From positions 1 to 60,676 of the forward strand of contig JACQEZ010000010.1 of assembly GCA_016200325.1 (NCBI GenBank): 60,676 nt of DNA, given 5' to 3'. Under the pieces are notes generated by a model. That model saw only the letters and a program-made list of their open reading frames with translations. It did not search any database and was not told where the DNA came from. Made by a program: the position numbers and the translations under genes. This stretch comes from Candidatus Manganitrophaceae bacterium. Lineage in GTDB: Bacteria > Nitrospirota > Nitrospiria > SBBL01 > Manganitrophaceae. Below, piece by piece: positions 7,476 through 60,676 of the stretch (position 1 is the first letter of the stretch; the number at the start of each line of letters is the position of its first letter).

Positions 7476-8652
7476 CTATTCTTTTTCCAACTCTTTTTCC
7501 AACCGATAGGGGAGAGAGACGGTGAAGGTCGCGCCTTTTCCATACTCGCTTCGGATGGAGACCCTCCCTTTAAGCAGCGTCACCAACTCTTTCACGATCG
7601 TGAGGCCCAGACCGCTTCCTCCCGACGTTCGGCTCTCCTCCGCCTGGTAGAAACTTTCGAAGACCCGCGACAGCGCCTCCGGCGCGATCCCGACGCCGGT
7701 GTCGGAGACCGCCATTTCGATCTCCTCCGTCGCCGGAAGATCCCGGGCGGAAATCACGATCACCCCCTGCTCGGTAAATTTAATGGCGTTGGTCAAGAGG
7801 TTTACGACGATCTGCTTTACCCGCAAGGGGTCGGAAACAATCGACGGGAGGGCGGAGGCCAGACCGTCACGGCGGATCGACAACCCTTTCCGGTCGGCCA
7901 AAGGCTTCATCTCTAGAGAGAGATCTTCCAGCAGCGGCGCAATCGCGATCGGCGCCAGATCCAGAGGCAACTTCCCCGACTCCATCCGGGCGAGGTCGAG
8001 GATGTTGTTGACCGGCTGGAGGAGGTCGTCGGCATTCCGCTGAATTCGCTCCAGCGCCGGCTTCTCTTCTTCTCCGATGGGGCCATCGGTCCCGTCGCGC
8101 AGCAGCGCGGTATAGCCGATGATGGCGTTGAGCGGGGTGCGGAGGTCGTGAAAGATCTGAGAGACGAATTCCGATTTAAACCGGTTGGCCCGCTCCGCCT
8201 CGGCGCGCAGCCTCTGTTCATTTTGCAACGCTTCGCGGCGCAGGCGGGCCAGTTCCAGGTGTGCGCCGACCCGCGCCATCAACTCCCGGGCCGAAAAAGG
8301 TTTAACGAGATAGTCGTCGGCGCCCGGCGGCTCCGTCCGCCACGGTTTCGACCCTCCAGCGGGCGCTCAGCAGGCGTCGAACATACTCGCGCATGTCGGT
8401 ATTGTCATCCGCCAACAGGATGCGGGATCCGAGCGTCCGAACATCGGTTGGCGAGAGGTGAGCATGATCCGGACGGCGGTTTTGAGGCTCCGGGGGGCCG
8501 AGCGGATTGGCGGACCAATTGAAATTTCGAATCAGATAGCCTAATTCGCCGCCGCTGACGAGCCAATTTTCGAGGTGGGGATATTTTTCTGTCCGGACAT
8601 AAAACGCTGAGCGACTCTCCTGAACAAAGCGAACCAAAATACTTCTCTGCAA
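7476..8652 (-). pseudogene. Decayed hybrid histidine kinase (PAS remnant, REC remnant, intact HisKA-HATPase)
   Basis: The 3' part (7476-8282, 268 residues) is a complete kinase core: HisKA with FHDLRTPLNA and HATPase with NLLTNAIKFTE, DTGVGI and SGLGLTIVKE. Upstream (8302-8652) the frame starts like the PAS module of large hybrid kinases (GGELGYLIRNFNWSANPLGP), but near 8485-8493 it shifts so that SLKTAVRIMLTSRQPMF is read in another frame. It then jumps (~8425-8440) to a receiver start, RILLADDNTDMREYV. After VADG (~8325-8335) about 50 residues of the receiver are missing, including the phospho-acceptor Asp, before GADDYLVKPF resumes in a different frame. At least three internal losses thus broke an ancestral sensor. 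The kinase part could still be made from an internal start. Confidence 0.75.
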
Positions 8653-8665
8653 GCATCGGATCGCT

Positions 8666-9148
8666 TTATTCTTCGCTGAAGAAAAAAGTCGCTTTCACCC
8701 GCTCCACCTCCATCAGGCGAACGATCTTTAGAAGCGCCTCGTGCATCTCCAAGACCTCTTTTTCGGAGAGATACTGTAAGCTGTGGAGCAGCTTCCCCTG
8801 AGACGGCTCCGGCGCTTGATCGACGATCCGCTTTCCGATAGCGGTGAGGTGAACCATGACGACGCGGCGATCGGGCGCGTCTCTTTTTCGGACCACATAT
8901 CCCTTTGTTTCGAGGCGATCAATGATCCCAGAGACGGTCGAGATATGAAGGTACATCTTCTGGGTCAGCTCGCTGACCGACGTCCCGCCGTCGTGCCGGA
9001 GCGTTTTAAGGAGCCAGAGCTGGGGTCCCGTCACGCCGAACTCTTTTAACACCTCCTCGGAGTATTGCTGGATCGCTTTGAAGATTCTCCGGAACGATTG
9101 GACGATCTCCGCGATCGCCGTCTTTCTTGTAACTTTCTTTTTCGGCAT
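8666..9148 (-). CDS. MarR-family transcriptional regulator
   Basis: This is a winged-helix repressor/activator of 160 residues. The order of elements is typical: dimer helix (IVQSFRRIFKAIQQYSEEVL), TGPQLWLLKTL, recognition helix region HISTVSGIIDRLETKGYVVR, wing DAPDRRVVMVHLT. I chose the start at 9148 because AGAGGA lies about 9 bases upstream; the frame extends 15 residues further without better support. It sits between the decayed kinase and the ClC gene. Its target is unknown. The palindrome at 11709-11726 is one possible operator, but this is speculative. Confidence 0.85.
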   Translation of the reverse strand: MPKKKVTRKTAIAEIVQSFRRIFKAIQQYSEEVLKEFGVTGPQLWLLKTLRHDGGTSVSELTQKMYLHISTVSGIIDRLETKGYVVRKRDAPDRRVVMVHLTAIGKRIVDQAPEPSQGKLLHSLQYLSEKEVLEMHEALLKIVRLMEVERVKATFFFSEE

Positions 9149-9280
9149 TGGGTCTGTCCTCTTTATCGGTTGGGCCATTTTGACGAGGGACATCTCTTTG
9201 AGCGGCCTTTGTCGATGATCGCCGATCGGATCAGGACAAAAGCAAAGAAGCGGATCGGAGAGCGATCACTTAGCGCTTAA

Positions 9281-10639
9281 TCACGATCTGCTCCGGCGGA
9301 GGCGGTGATAGAGATCAACAAGGATGAAAGAGAGCTTTTTGGGACGCGCGATCCGTTGAATCTGGATGACCTCGCCGATCTCCGATTGCAGATCGATCTG
9401 AAACGATTCGCTCTTGGCCACGCCGATGATCTGGCTCGGATAGACGCTCCGATGTCCGGTGATCAGAAAGCTCGTGACACAGGCGACGGCGGCATAGGAG
9501 GCGAGGAGCGGGCCGAAGAGCTCGATTGCCATCACCGAGGCGGCGATGGGGGTGTTCGTCGCCCCGGCCAAGACCGCCATCATGCCGATGGCGGCGAAGG
9601 TCCCCCGGTCCATCGACGTCATCTGCCCCCAGAGATCTCCCGCGGCGGCGCCGATAAAAAAAACCGGTGTGAGAATTCCGCCGCTCCCGCCCGATCCGAG
9701 CGTCACCGCCGTCGTGATCGTTTTCCAGAAAAACGCGCCGGAAGGAAGACCCTTCCCTTGCACCGCCTCTTCTATGCCGGAGATTCCGAGACCGAGATAG
9801 CTGTTTCCGACCGAGAGGGTCAATAGGATCAAAAGTATCCCGCCGGCCACCCCTTTCCAGGGCTTCCAGATGGGCCATCGTTTAAAGCCGCGCTCGACCC
9901 CTTCTAGGATCAAAATGAGCACCAACGCGATCAAGCCGAAAAAGAGGCCGGCGAGAAAGACTTTGAAAAAGGTCCACTCATCGATCGCAGGCACCAGGGT
10001 AACGGTGTGATGGAAGTAGGTCATGCCGAGGCGGGTGGCGACATGGTAGGCGATGATTCCGGAGACGAAGGAGGGGTAGAGGACATCATAAAGGAGCTGT
10101 CCCAAAAAGAGGACCTCGACGGCAAAGAGGGCGCCGGCGATCGGGGTGCCGAAGACCCCCGCGAAGCCTCCCGCGATGCCGCAGATCACCAGTTTTTTCC
10201 GATCATACGGAGAGAGACGAATCAGATTGGCGAAGGCCGAGGCGAGGCCGGCCCCGATTTGGGCGCACGGTCCTTCCTTCCCGGCGGAGCCGCCGGAGGC
10301 GATCGTGAGGATCGTCGCCAACAACTTGATCGGCACGACGCGGGGATCGATCCGGCCTTCCCGTTTGTGGATCGCCCAGATGACTTTCTCCGTTCCGTGT
10401 CCTTCCGCTTCCGGCGCGAAAACCCGGACCAATAGGCTGCTTAAAAAGAGGGTGATCGGCAGGAGAAGAAAGAAGTAAGGATAGGGTGCCGTCCGTTCGA
10501 TGCCGCGCCGAAGGAGAATGAGAAAAAGCGCGGTCGACGCGCCGACGACCACGCCGACGAAGGCGGCCAGCGCGGTCCACTTCAACAGACTCAGCAGCAG
10601 GGTTCCTTGCTCGACAAAGATTCGGCGGTGGAGCGACAT
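9281..10639 (-). CDS. ClC-family chloride channel/transporter
   Basis: This 452-residue membrane protein has about 10-12 hydrophobic helices and the ClC signatures: GGSAGKEGP (with the gating Glu), FGTPIAGALFAVE, and GSGGSGGILTP. The cytoplasmic proton glutamate of the E. coli exchanger (second Glu in FIIEEM) aligns with Val here (FAVEV), as in ClC channels, which hints at channel-like behaviour. I prefer the ATG at 10639 (GGAGGAG upstream, MSLHRR) over the TTG at 10708. No C-terminal CBS domains are present. It transports anions across the inner membrane. Confidence 0.9.
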   Translation of the reverse strand: MSLHRRIFVEQGTLLLSLLKWTALAAFVGVVVGASTALFLILLRRGIERTAPYPYFFLLLPITLFLSSLLVRVFAPEAEGHGTEKVIWAIHKREGRIDPRVVPIKLLATILTIASGGSAGKEGPCAQIGAGLASAFANLIRLSPYDRKKLVICGIAGGFAGVFGTPIAGALFAVEVLFLGQLLYDVLYPSFVSGIIAYHVATRLGMTYFHHTVTLVPAIDEWTFFKVFLAGLFFGLIALVLILILEGVERGFKRWPIWKPWKGVAGGILLILLTLSVGNSYLGLGISGIEEAVQGKGLPSGAFFWKTITTAVTLGSGGSGGILTPVFFIGAAAGDLWGQMTSMDRGTFAAIGMMAVLAGATNTPIAASVMAIELFGPLLASYAAVACVTSFLITGHRSVYPSQIIGVAKSESFQIDLQSEIGEVIQIQRIARPKKLSFILVDLYHRLRRSRS

Positions 10640-10803
10640 CCTTTTAATCGTCTCCTCCCGCAGAGGGGGATCGGTCGCTCCGGAAATTTTGGGATTTTCA
10701 GGAGACAAGTTTAACCTACTGTCGAGAGAAGTGGAGAGATATACCGTCCCGCCTTACCGAGCTTGAAGCTGTCTACCCTATCACACATCGGTTCGGCTGT
10801 CCA

Positions 10804-11652
10804 TCATGGATCGGCGGTGCGATCTTCGCGGAGGCGGGCGCCCAATCCGATCCGTCCCTGCTCCTGCTTTTCATATTCCGGCCGTTCCACTTGGCTGGCA
10901 TCGAACTCAAAGCGGACCGGGGAGGTGTTCCGTGCCGTGACGGTGACCGTTTGCGAAGCGATTTTCATGTGGGGATGCCAGGCGGTAATCTTGTAGGTTC
11001 CCGGGGGCAGCCCCTCGATGGAAAAGCGGCCGTCGGCGCCGGTGATCGCATAATAGGGGTTGTCGACCACAAAGGCCCAGTTCTGCATGAACTCATGCAT
11101 GCCGCAGATCGTCTCAGTGATTTTGGTCGACGGTTTCAGTCGGATTGTCCCGGTCTGAGTCGATTTTACCGGGAGCGGCTGGTTCAGGACAATGTTGCCT
11201 CCCTCACTTTGATAGATCTGAATGTTGTGGATGACCGGGTCGTCATTGATGACATTGATTTTCTGATGCTGCTCCATTACGGAGACGAACGGCTCGAAGG
11301 TGCATTGGACCACGTGGAACTCTCCCGTCGGATGGCGAAACGGCTTTCCTTTTTGGACCGCTTGCACGGCGATGACCACATCCTGAAGCCCTCCTTCTTG
11401 GGAGCGCTTAAACTCCTGGAGGACCCGGTTCCCCTTGCCGTCCGAATCCCGCTTCTCGCAGAACGGACCGAAGGGGTAGAGGACGAGGTGAAAAAGACGG
11501 GGCGGGGGGACCTCTCCTTTGAGGGTGACCGTTCCAGTCACGGTGCCGCCGTTGCCGACGTTGATTTCCTCATAACCGAAGGCAGCCGGACCGGCCGACA
11601 TTAAAACGATTCCGGCTAAAAATAGGGCTCCAAAGGCATTTCTCATCTTCAT
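10804..11652 (-). CDS. Exported cupredoxin-like protein with carboxypeptidase-regulatory-like domain
   Basis: The 282-residue protein has a signal peptide (1-26) and a beta-sandwich region with possible copper ligands: a His in DDPVIHNIQIYQ and the cluster CGMHEFM. It then has a carboxypeptidase-regulatory-like/transthyretin-like fold (YAITGADGRFSIEGLPPGTY, WHPHMK). Such plastocyanin-like proteins are common in the periplasm of chemolithotrophic bacteria and may carry electrons or bind metal. The charged tail (RLREDRTADP) is unexplained. Its promoter is overlapped by an 18-bp palindrome (11709-11726), so its transcription is probably repressor-controlled. Confidence 0.75.
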   Translation of the reverse strand: MKMRNAFGALFLAGIVLMSAGPAAFGYEEINVGNGGTVTGTVTLKGEVPPPRLFHLVLYPFGPFCEKRDSDGKGNRVLQEFKRSQEGGLQDVVIAVQAVQKGKPFRHPTGEFHVVQCTFEPFVSVMEQHQKINVINDDPVIHNIQIYQSEGGNIVLNQPLPVKSTQTGTIRLKPSTKITETICGMHEFMQNWAFVVDNPYYAITGADGRFSIEGLPPGTYKITAWHPHMKIASQTVTVTARNTSPVRFEFDASQVERPEYEKQEQGRIGLGARLREDRTADP

Positions 11653-22001: not shown

Positions 22002-22291
22002 TTCTCACCTCGCCTTGGGGGCCTCGTTAATAAAAGGATCCCAGTGAACCCAGTCTATAATATCAATTAGAATGAATCAAGATTTGTATGGAAGTGGGTT
22101 TGGATTATTTTATTTAGTCAACATCGATTGCATGCATCTGTGGGTGGCCCGCCTTCTTACCCTTATTCCGGATGCGCGTGGCGCCCTCGGCTCTAATTGT
22201 TGCGGGACAGGATTTGTTATCCCTCTCGTAGTAAGGAGGGAAGATAGAATCTAGAAGATAGAAGACAGAAGGCGGATCTAAAGAACATTGG

Positions 22292-22853
22292 AGCGGGGTT
22301 TCACCCCACCCCCCACCGTGGGGCCGTCTTGCCACGGCCCCTCCGGCTTCCCCAGGCAGCGGGTGGGGCTTCCCCCCCTGCTCCCCCCCACGGCCGAACT
22401 CGGCGCGACCGCACAAAGAGGTGCGGACTGCGCCTCAGACAGGCGCCCTGTAAAGGTAGATAGAACGATTCATTTATAGCGGTGGCGCACTGCGTCCTCG
22501 CTCCACCCATCCCCCCGTGGGGCCCTTTCTCTCCGACACAGCACGCCACCGAGGGGATAAACCCAAATCTAGTACTGTTTGTGTTTGAATTAAAAAAGAT
22601 CGTAAGCGCCTGCGCGGCAAGGGCGTACTACGCCCCCCCCCTCTGCTGCGTTTTATATCAGACGTCTCACCGACCGAATCAGGTCACCTGTCGAAGCCCC
22701 ATCCGCGGTGCCCTTCCGCGCGTGGTGCAAGTTGTGACCGTAAGGGGGGAGCGGGGGGGATCTCTCACCGGCTGCACGGGGGGGCCGGAGGGGGCCGGGC
22801 AGTCGGCCCCCACGTTGGGGGGTGGGTTAAAACCCCACGACCTTCGGCAGGCA
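22292..22853. mobile_element. MITE-like noncoding element, copy A
   Basis: About 560 bases share long near-identical blocks with the element at 60234 to the window end (for example GATCGTAAGCGCCTGCGCGG and CCGAATCAGGTCACCTGTCG). The two ends are inverted copies of each other: the right end reads AAAACCCCACGACCTTCGGC and its reverse complement matches the left end of copy B, with similarity running over roughly 100 bases inward. No coding gene is evident. Copy A lacks the outermost ~14 bases on the left and carries ~107 extra bases (about 22435-22542) relative to copy B. The remaining sequence from 22002 to 22291 and from 22854 to 23001 holds nothing I can support. Confidence 0.7.
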
Positions 22854-23001
22854 ATCCGCACACACAAGAACCGACCTCGCCGCGGCAACCCTTTTTTGAA
22901 TTTCTGCAACGGGTCCTTTCTCCTCTCCCTCCGCGAGAGCGACACTAAAATATCTCTCCCTTCTATTCTAAATGAAGTCACCGCCCGGTGAATGATCCCC
23001 C

Positions 23002-60233: not shown

Positions 60234-60676
60234 TGCCTGCCGAAGGCCGTGGGGTTTCACCCCGCCCCCCACCGTGGGGGCGCCTCGTCGCGCCCCCTCC
60301 GGCTTCCCCAGACGCCGGGGGTGGAACCCCCTGGCCCCCCTGCGGCCGAACTCGGCGCGACCGCACAAGAGCAGTGCGGACTGCACGCCACCGAGCAGAT
60401 AAACCTAATTCCGGGGCTTTTGAAATAAAGATCGTAAGCGCCTGCGCGGCAAGGGCGCACTCCGCCCCCCCACGCTGCTGCGTTTTATATCAGACGTTCT
60501 ATCGACCGAATCAGGTCACCTGTCGAAGTACCATCCGCGGTGCTCTCCCGCGCGTGGTACAAGTTGTGACCGTAAGGGGGGAGCGGGGGGGATCTCCCCC
60601 CGGCTGCACGGGGAGGCCGGAGGGGGCCGGGCAGTCGGCCCCCACGGTGGGGGGTGGGGTAAAACCCCACGACCTT
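60234..60676. mobile_element. MITE-like noncoding element, copy B (runs to window end)
   Basis: The left end TGCCTGCCGAAGGCCGTGGG is the inverse of the right end of copy A (22853 side). Shared internal blocks with copy A include CCGAACTCGGCGCGACCGCA and GTTTTATATCAGACG. The right end AAAACCCCACGACCTT reaches the window edge; only about a dozen bases of the expected end are missing. No coding gene is evident. It sits just after the esterase gene. Confidence 0.7.

Follow-up and report, generated by a model that had tools for sequence, protein, structure and literature searches.

A probable BIME/REPIN-like mosaic of palindromes, moved in trans, in the genus Manganitrophus

The repeat that we call copy A is probably one member of a genus-specific, non-coding and non-autonomous family, a very large BIME/REPIN-like mosaic of palindromes that an enzyme would move in trans; we put the probability of this reading at about two in three. 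It lies in a window (the whole stretch of DNA analysed, 60,676 nucleotides) that makes up all of contig C10; the genome comprises 4.21 Mb in 20 contigs. The host is very probably a manganese-oxidising member of the genus Manganitrophus, phylum Nitrospirota. Under the mechanism we favour, the palindromic units would be recognised and moved as folded single strands, on the lagging strand or as cruciforms, by an enzyme supplied in trans and without target duplication, and the units would grow as hairpins insert into the loops of existing hairpins.

Copies and their insertion sites

The first-pass annotation had reported two non-coding, MITE-like copies in the window, A at 22292-22853 and B at 60234-60676. 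Both are real and have common blocks: BLAST of A against B aligned 22295-22431 with 60251-60384 (83%) and 22538-22844 with 60380-60676 (88%). The 107-base segment said to be present only in copy A was recovered as ~107-111 bases, at about 22432-22542, without a counterpart in B. Because the window is the entire contig, the contig end truncates copy B. As had been stated, the copies hold no coding gene; the three open reading frames of ≥90 aa that overlap copy A contain no Pfam domain, and we rejected coding potential.

The count of two was too low. With copy A as query, BLAST returned 71 matching pieces from the genome, which made up 31 places once neighbouring stretches were added. Ten of the 40 contig ends, copy B included, are copies, which partly explains the breaks in the assembly. 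All five other congeneric genomes carry the family; G005, a sister genome in a single contig, has seven full copies (~560 bp) and about six shorter ones. None of the 12 other genomes of the order that were searched contained a match to the element, and a class-level search matched only a central piece of 35-44 bases. Neither the plasmid nor the phage collection yielded a match, and carriage by phages or plasmids was rejected on this basis.

With a simple codon-usage gene caller written for this analysis, a single copy of 33 overlapped a gene call and the remainder were intergenic. Three of the 33 were left unclassified by gap; the other 30 lay between tandem (14), convergent (8) or divergent (8) genes, as compared with 24, 10 and 10 for the gene pairs of the window.

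To find orthologous sites in the five sister genomes, we used 13 flanking stretches. Both flanks aligned with no element between them in 27 locus-genome pairs, representing eight of the 13 loci (L002, L010, L011, L020, L022, L023, L024 and L025), and the site was occupied in five pairs. The best empty gaps measured 8-16 bases, versus about 340-720 in this genome (L010, L002, L022). Left out of the count were L021, which had a gap of the same size with no element match, L026, with one weak hit, and L022 in G001, where a 22-nt element match is present, as well as L006 and copy A, with one-sided alignments; at the site of copy A, only the left flank is syntenic in the two relatives compared. Because empty sites with both flanks occur at eight of 13 loci, the copies are real insertions. 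The outcome that the first-pass annotation had set against its own proposal, just two copies and no empty sites in relatives, did not materialise. No junction was seen at base resolution between species because the intergenic flanks are too diverged. At one orthologous site (L044, L053, L065), the element measures 610 and 590 bp in two species and 378 bp in a third; therefore, elements change internally while staying in place.

Hairpin architecture and the central core

A full copy (~560 bp) consists of two inverted homologous halves, both matched by one profile, around a central hairpin. Each half comprises about five hairpins, with D outermost, followed by C, B, A and the inner module F. The features of the two copies are as follows, with strand given where assigned; the limits of copy A extend the earlier 22292-22853 by a few bases at the ends.

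22280..22857: copy A, complete mosaic palindromic element (genome search with 22280-22870, ends compared across copies)
22293..22309: left half, end hairpin D, GCGGGG TTTC ACCCC AC (consensus fold of 72 halves; pattern search)
22316..22346: left half, hairpin C, CCG-GGGGCCGT-loop-ACGGCCCC-CGG, with strong covariation (alignment columns 30-60)
22356..22386: left half, hairpin B, G/C-rich, aligns poorly (fold and half alignment)
22392..22447: left half, hairpin A, GGCCGAAC...GGCGCC, with a conserved internal loop (alignment columns 122-187)
22432..22542: segment missing in copy B, the end of hairpin A and most of central module E (BLAST comparison of the two copies)
22479..22551, plus strand: central module E, a variable stem (GCGGTGGCG/CGCCACCG) around a conserved core (22 own and congeneric sequences)
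22497..22527, plus strand: 31-nt core, CTCGCTCCACCC.TCCCCC.GTGGGGCCCTT, common to other phyla (pattern scan; model R1)
22597..22666, minus strand: right half, module F, inner hairpin region (alignment of solo and full halves)
22682..22739, minus strand: right half, hairpin A, GGTCAC...GTGACC (half alignment, covariation)
22742..22777, minus strand: right half, hairpin B (fold and half alignment)
22785..22814, minus strand: right half, hairpin C, GGGGGCCG-GGCAGT-CGGCCCCC (half alignment, covariation)
22821..22853, minus strand: right half, end hairpin D with outer arm CGACCTTCGGCAGGCA (pattern search; same arm in a ~40-bp palindrome found alone elsewhere)
60234..60676: copy B, without the central core, cut by the contig end (sequence, BLAST of A against B)

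The ends had been described as inverted copies of each other. An inverted match does exist, but it pairs CGACCTTCGGCAGGCA (22838-22853), at the right of copy A, with GCCTGCCGAAGG... at the left of copy B. The left end of A reads ACATTGGAGCGGGG and is of a different type from its right end. Instead of short terminal inverted repeats, copy A has inverted arms of ~99 nt, 74% complementary, which belong to the two homologous halves, each about 190-235 nt long. The aligned ends have the sequence CTGCCTnAGGTCGTGGGG or AAGAGCGTTGGAATGGGG, and the pattern search for end hairpin D found 31 such ends in the genome and none in the control.

Besides full elements, there are solo halves of ~250 bp. The basic units are ~40-bp palindromes, TGCCTnAGGTCGTGGGG...CCCCACGACCTnAGGCA and TTGGAATGGGGC...GCCCCATTCCAA, and sister genomes carry elements bounded by the latter. 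With additional hairpins placed between the two arms of such a palindrome, the ~250-bp halves and the ~560-bp full elements result. Eight of the 34 end-palindrome places in this genome are bare ~40-bp palindromes with the same arms, outside the 31 catalogued places; solo palindromes were seen at L311, L312 and L313. One and the same type of extra hairpin is nested within hairpin C at six places in two species (seven rows, with L014 and L310 representing one place).

Module E (22479-22551) lies mostly within the segment absent from copy B. Across 22 sequences from this and sister genomes, its stem varies with compensation around a constant heart, CTCGCTCCACCCATCCCCCAGTGGGNCCCTT. A scan with a degenerate 31-base pattern returned 75 stretches in named genomes, which by their titles belong to Nitrospirota (44, Nitrospira among them), Methylomirabilota (11), Rokubacteria (8) and Aminicenantes (4), with two more in one gammaproteobacterial MAG and six in one unplaced bacterium. 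Since most core-bearing genomes are MAGs, single odd placements could be binning errors. The pattern did not occur in viral contigs.

Across phyla, the 31-nt heart is nearly identical. Outside Manganitrophus it usually sits within a structured frame of ~115 nt with compensating stems, and sometimes inside other MITEs. The frame reads GCGGG-TCCTGTC-[stem]-AGCCC-[stem]-CGTSCTCRC...CCGYTGCGSGC-[stem]-GGGCGCCC-[stem]-GCCA-CCCGC, in which the GGGCGCCC slot can also be summarised as GGGC. Model R1 matched the apical part in the genome's own copies (best E 5e-8) and placed the element in at least 46 of 295 Nitrospirota genomes and at least 15 of 135 genera, a genome often having several; this survey is a lower bound, with stricter filters and scoring of 12 candidates per genome. 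In divergent members, the frame is retained but the apex is a different one or a hypervariable one of ~50 nt, and the outermost stem is near perfect and specific to the locus. At L216, L217, L218 and L221, a constant frame surrounds a hypervariable apical insert of about 50 nt that differs in every copy read.

In Nitrospira (loci L233-L262 for this gap), the cross-phylum element lies directly behind the nuoA stop codon and before nuoB (gene names resting on translations), in one orientation in many Nitrospira. The interior of this gap was not alignable and gave no base-level junction. In other Nitrospira, the gap is either short and bare (39 bases in L250) or holds different palindromes, namely a second type, TTGAAGGGCGGTGGG...CCCACCGCCCTTCA, and TTAACG-rich hairpins. 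Between tandem genes overall, the element was in the same orientation in 25 cases, several of them orthologous, and in the opposite orientation in 10.

Related genomes contain seven MITE-like elements, 150-230 bp long, with the terminal inverted repeat CCCTAATCCGAAA (L136, L166, L192 and others); the core frame occurs in six of them, and three of the seven have an exact 4-bp duplication. A third kind of carrier, seen in two phyla, holds the core between the ends (C)TAATACAAACG...CGTTTGTATTA(G) at L152, L159, L178 and L180 (Methylomirabilota) and at L230 (same order as the window). Separately, a small and very similar insert of the AAGCCGCGTCTTGGCGCGGC...GGGTGAGAA type lies within two different Nitrospira palindrome families (L048, L049, L058, L136, L251-L253).

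The central core of copy A is probably a decayed representative of a second hairpin element, one that spans phyla and was inserted into or captured by the mosaic. We suggest, tentatively and with less than even confidence, that it represents an undescribed class of structured DNA elements found across phyla; this class would be mobile through hairpin-recognising machinery common to distant phyla and would ride in, or power, several unrelated MITE-like and mosaic repeats.

Stem covariation

The RNA folding proposed in the first-pass annotation gave z = -8.65 and -9.14 for the two strands of copy A, and none of 100 shuffles folded as well. Hairpin pairing is conserved in the halves. At the 13 pairs that vary within hairpins D, C and A of 72 aligned halves (three overlapping halves had been removed), we counted 869 Watson-Crick cells versus a shuffled mean of 576, and none of 500 shuffles, which leave the kinship of the copies in place, reached this value. 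Several columns contain three Watson-Crick types, e.g., C-G 27, T-A 21 and G-C 16. For the cross-phylum element, 18 variable pairs in 48 sequences gave 662 Watson-Crick cells versus 431 after shuffling (0 of 500). Rows with both frame anchors but long inserts, as well as duplicates, were removed before this alignment. Most of the 48 elements were found by the exact pattern, and conservation within the 31 nt is thus partly forced; the frame motifs outside it were not in the search pattern.

A strong fold and compensatory changes are also what a structured RNA family, or transcribed regulatory hairpins selected for RNA structure, would show, and the relative found in one orientation between nuoA and nuoB in many Nitrospira would fit such a role. 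For an RNA structure, an excess of G.U on one strand is expected. However, the variable pairs of the 72 halves contain no such excess (G.T 19, A.C 15), and Watson-Crick compensation with G.T no commoner than A.C points to DNA hairpins rather than RNA. In the cross-phylum element G.T numbered 64, 43 of them at one nearly constant T.G position, and A.C 45. Furthermore, the copies are distributed over tandem, convergent and divergent gaps much as other gaps are (14/8/8 versus 24/10/10), the cross-phylum element occurs in both orientations between tandem genes, and most tested sites are empty in sister species. Rfam 15 gave no match in the window, with only chance-level hits in copy A, and no match to the elements of 16 loci, with nothing beyond chance-level hits in one core element; a described RNA family was therefore rejected. 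We regard selection for RNA structure as a very unlikely explanation of the family.

From their alignments, the stems look like DNA palindromes maintained by hairpin selection or by template-switch correction. The Watson-Crick-only covariation could come from such correction and not from selection. This same pattern would also fit the absence of any dedicated mobility, with intergenic palindromes made and perfected by replication slippage and template switching and duplicated by recombination. The near-perfect, locus-specific outer stems of the cross-phylum element and the filling of one nuoA-nuoB gap by different palindrome families in different Nitrospira also agree with that proposal. Yet the core is nearly identical across phyla, and copies at unrelated loci are 88-93% identical over 400-560 bp, which requires a step of copying or moving. 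We consider an origin without mobility highly improbable.

Mobilisation and relation to known systems

The search for a mobilising enzyme, which covered the Y1 transposase family, found none. The genome has a single Y1 transposase gene, RAYT-like and 224 aa long (L059, contig C16, 1195-1869, minus strand), and it is flanked on both sides by AATAGGGACAGACACTATTTT repeats (AATAGGGACAGACACTATTT) unrelated to the element. L059, L264 and L282 contained no element match, and four of the five congeneric genomes had no Y1 match. Because the gene has other repeats at its flanks and four of five congeners lack Y1, transposition of the REP type by a RAYT is not supported in these cells, and RAYT/Y1 was rejected as the mobiliser. 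Nor do Y1 transposase genes border the cross-phylum core as a rule: among 31 Y1 loci, model R1 had one clear match (L274, E 2e-5) and one at chance level (L270, E 0.28).

An autonomous partner was sought between the paired elements of L060, whose open reading frames, read by eye, included no recognisable transposase; L061-L066 were mapped for elements only. The stretch between the L060 elements (8184-11457, Manganitrophus GAC4) holds likely defence genes, judged from translations: a DNA cytosine methylase, a Vsr-like endonuclease and an ATPase-like gene. The genome's 31 end-hairpin matches all fall in catalogued non-coding copies, and 10 contig ends are broken in copies.

The first-pass annotation had proposed a non-autonomous transposon or a structured intergenic repeat. 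Both descriptions are right, given 31 places, many empty orthologous sites and hairpins with compensatory changes. A strict MITE with terminal inverted repeats is a different matter. Such an element would have arisen from a DDE transposon by internal deletion, would keep long terminal inverted repeats and would be moved by that transposase. Like the element here, it would be non-coding and dispersed, with inverted ends (the 99-nt arms, 74% complementary) and empty sites in relatives; and the CCCTAATCCGAAA elements of related genomes, most of which carry the core frame, have a 4-bp duplication in three of seven. However, the target-site duplication that the annotation had asked for was absent at clean ends: by eye, six palindromes with clean ends, at four independent sites, have no direct repeat of 4 bp or more beside them. 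Rather than terminal inverted repeats around an internal gene, the arms are entire chains of hairpins, i.e., homologous halves, and solo halves and bare palindromes are unexpected for a MITE. The autonomous transposase that was also to be looked for did not appear among the end-hairpin matches, the L060 reading frames and the Y1 family: the end hairpins match only in catalogued non-coding copies of an assembly with 10 contig ends broken in copies, no coding partner was recognised at L060 and the only Y1 gene has a different repeat. We think an ordinary MITE unlikely.

BIMEs and REPINs are inverted pairs of repetitive extragenic palindromes (PMC6006769). The family resembles them in being multi-copy, intergenic and non-coding, in its palindromic units, solitary or in inverted pairs, in its mosaic of modules and in the lack of a visible target duplication; a short (20-40 bp) palindrome indeed occurs both alone and in inverted pairs. 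It differs in size, about 560 bp with ten or so hairpins against two short ones. The GTAG-type tag at the hairpin base is absent from aligned ends, no RAYT gene flanked by the element's own unit was found, and the preference for sites downstream of genes, rarely between divergent ones, was not seen, with eight of 30 classified copies between divergent genes, which speaks against a REP likeness. For these three reasons, we do not class the element as REP-type, though it would work alike.

CGTC-tagged REPs are cross-phylum palindromes without an associated transposase, with a CGTC or TGTC tag, a stem and a CCA tail (Di Nocera et al. 2013, PMC3733652). The cross-phylum frame is similar in reading ...CC-TGTC-[stem]...[stem]-G-CCA-CCC. 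It differs from the 8-9 bp stem and 4-5 nt loop given there in its length of ~115 nt, its three stems, its 31-nt apex and its outer locus-specific stem. Although the frame has TGTC and CCA, its three stems and its long conserved apex led us to reject identity with CGTC-tagged REPs, and the likeness of 4+3 nt may be chance.

Non-autonomous elements of the IS200/IS605 type have hairpins recognised as single strands and make no target duplication (PMC6006769). Hairpins without target duplication are common to both, the single-strand form being conjectural here. In the family, neither a conserved left/right end asymmetry nor a guide sequence was identified, and no TnpA relative with these ends was found.

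Integron attC sites have the core sites RYYYAAC and GTTRRRY. By eye, neither was seen in hairpin A or in the core consensus, and attC identity was rejected.

We found no description of the Manganitrophus repeats or of the core sequence in the open-licence literature, and the consulted part of PMC9040806 does not mention such repeats. As far as the literature searched shows, Manganitrophus thus gains its first described mosaic repeat family. The core, with its near-constant 31-nt apex and freely compensating stems in several phyla and with no Rfam family, offers a concrete handle on an old question, how palindromic repeats without a transposase spread across bacterial phyla.
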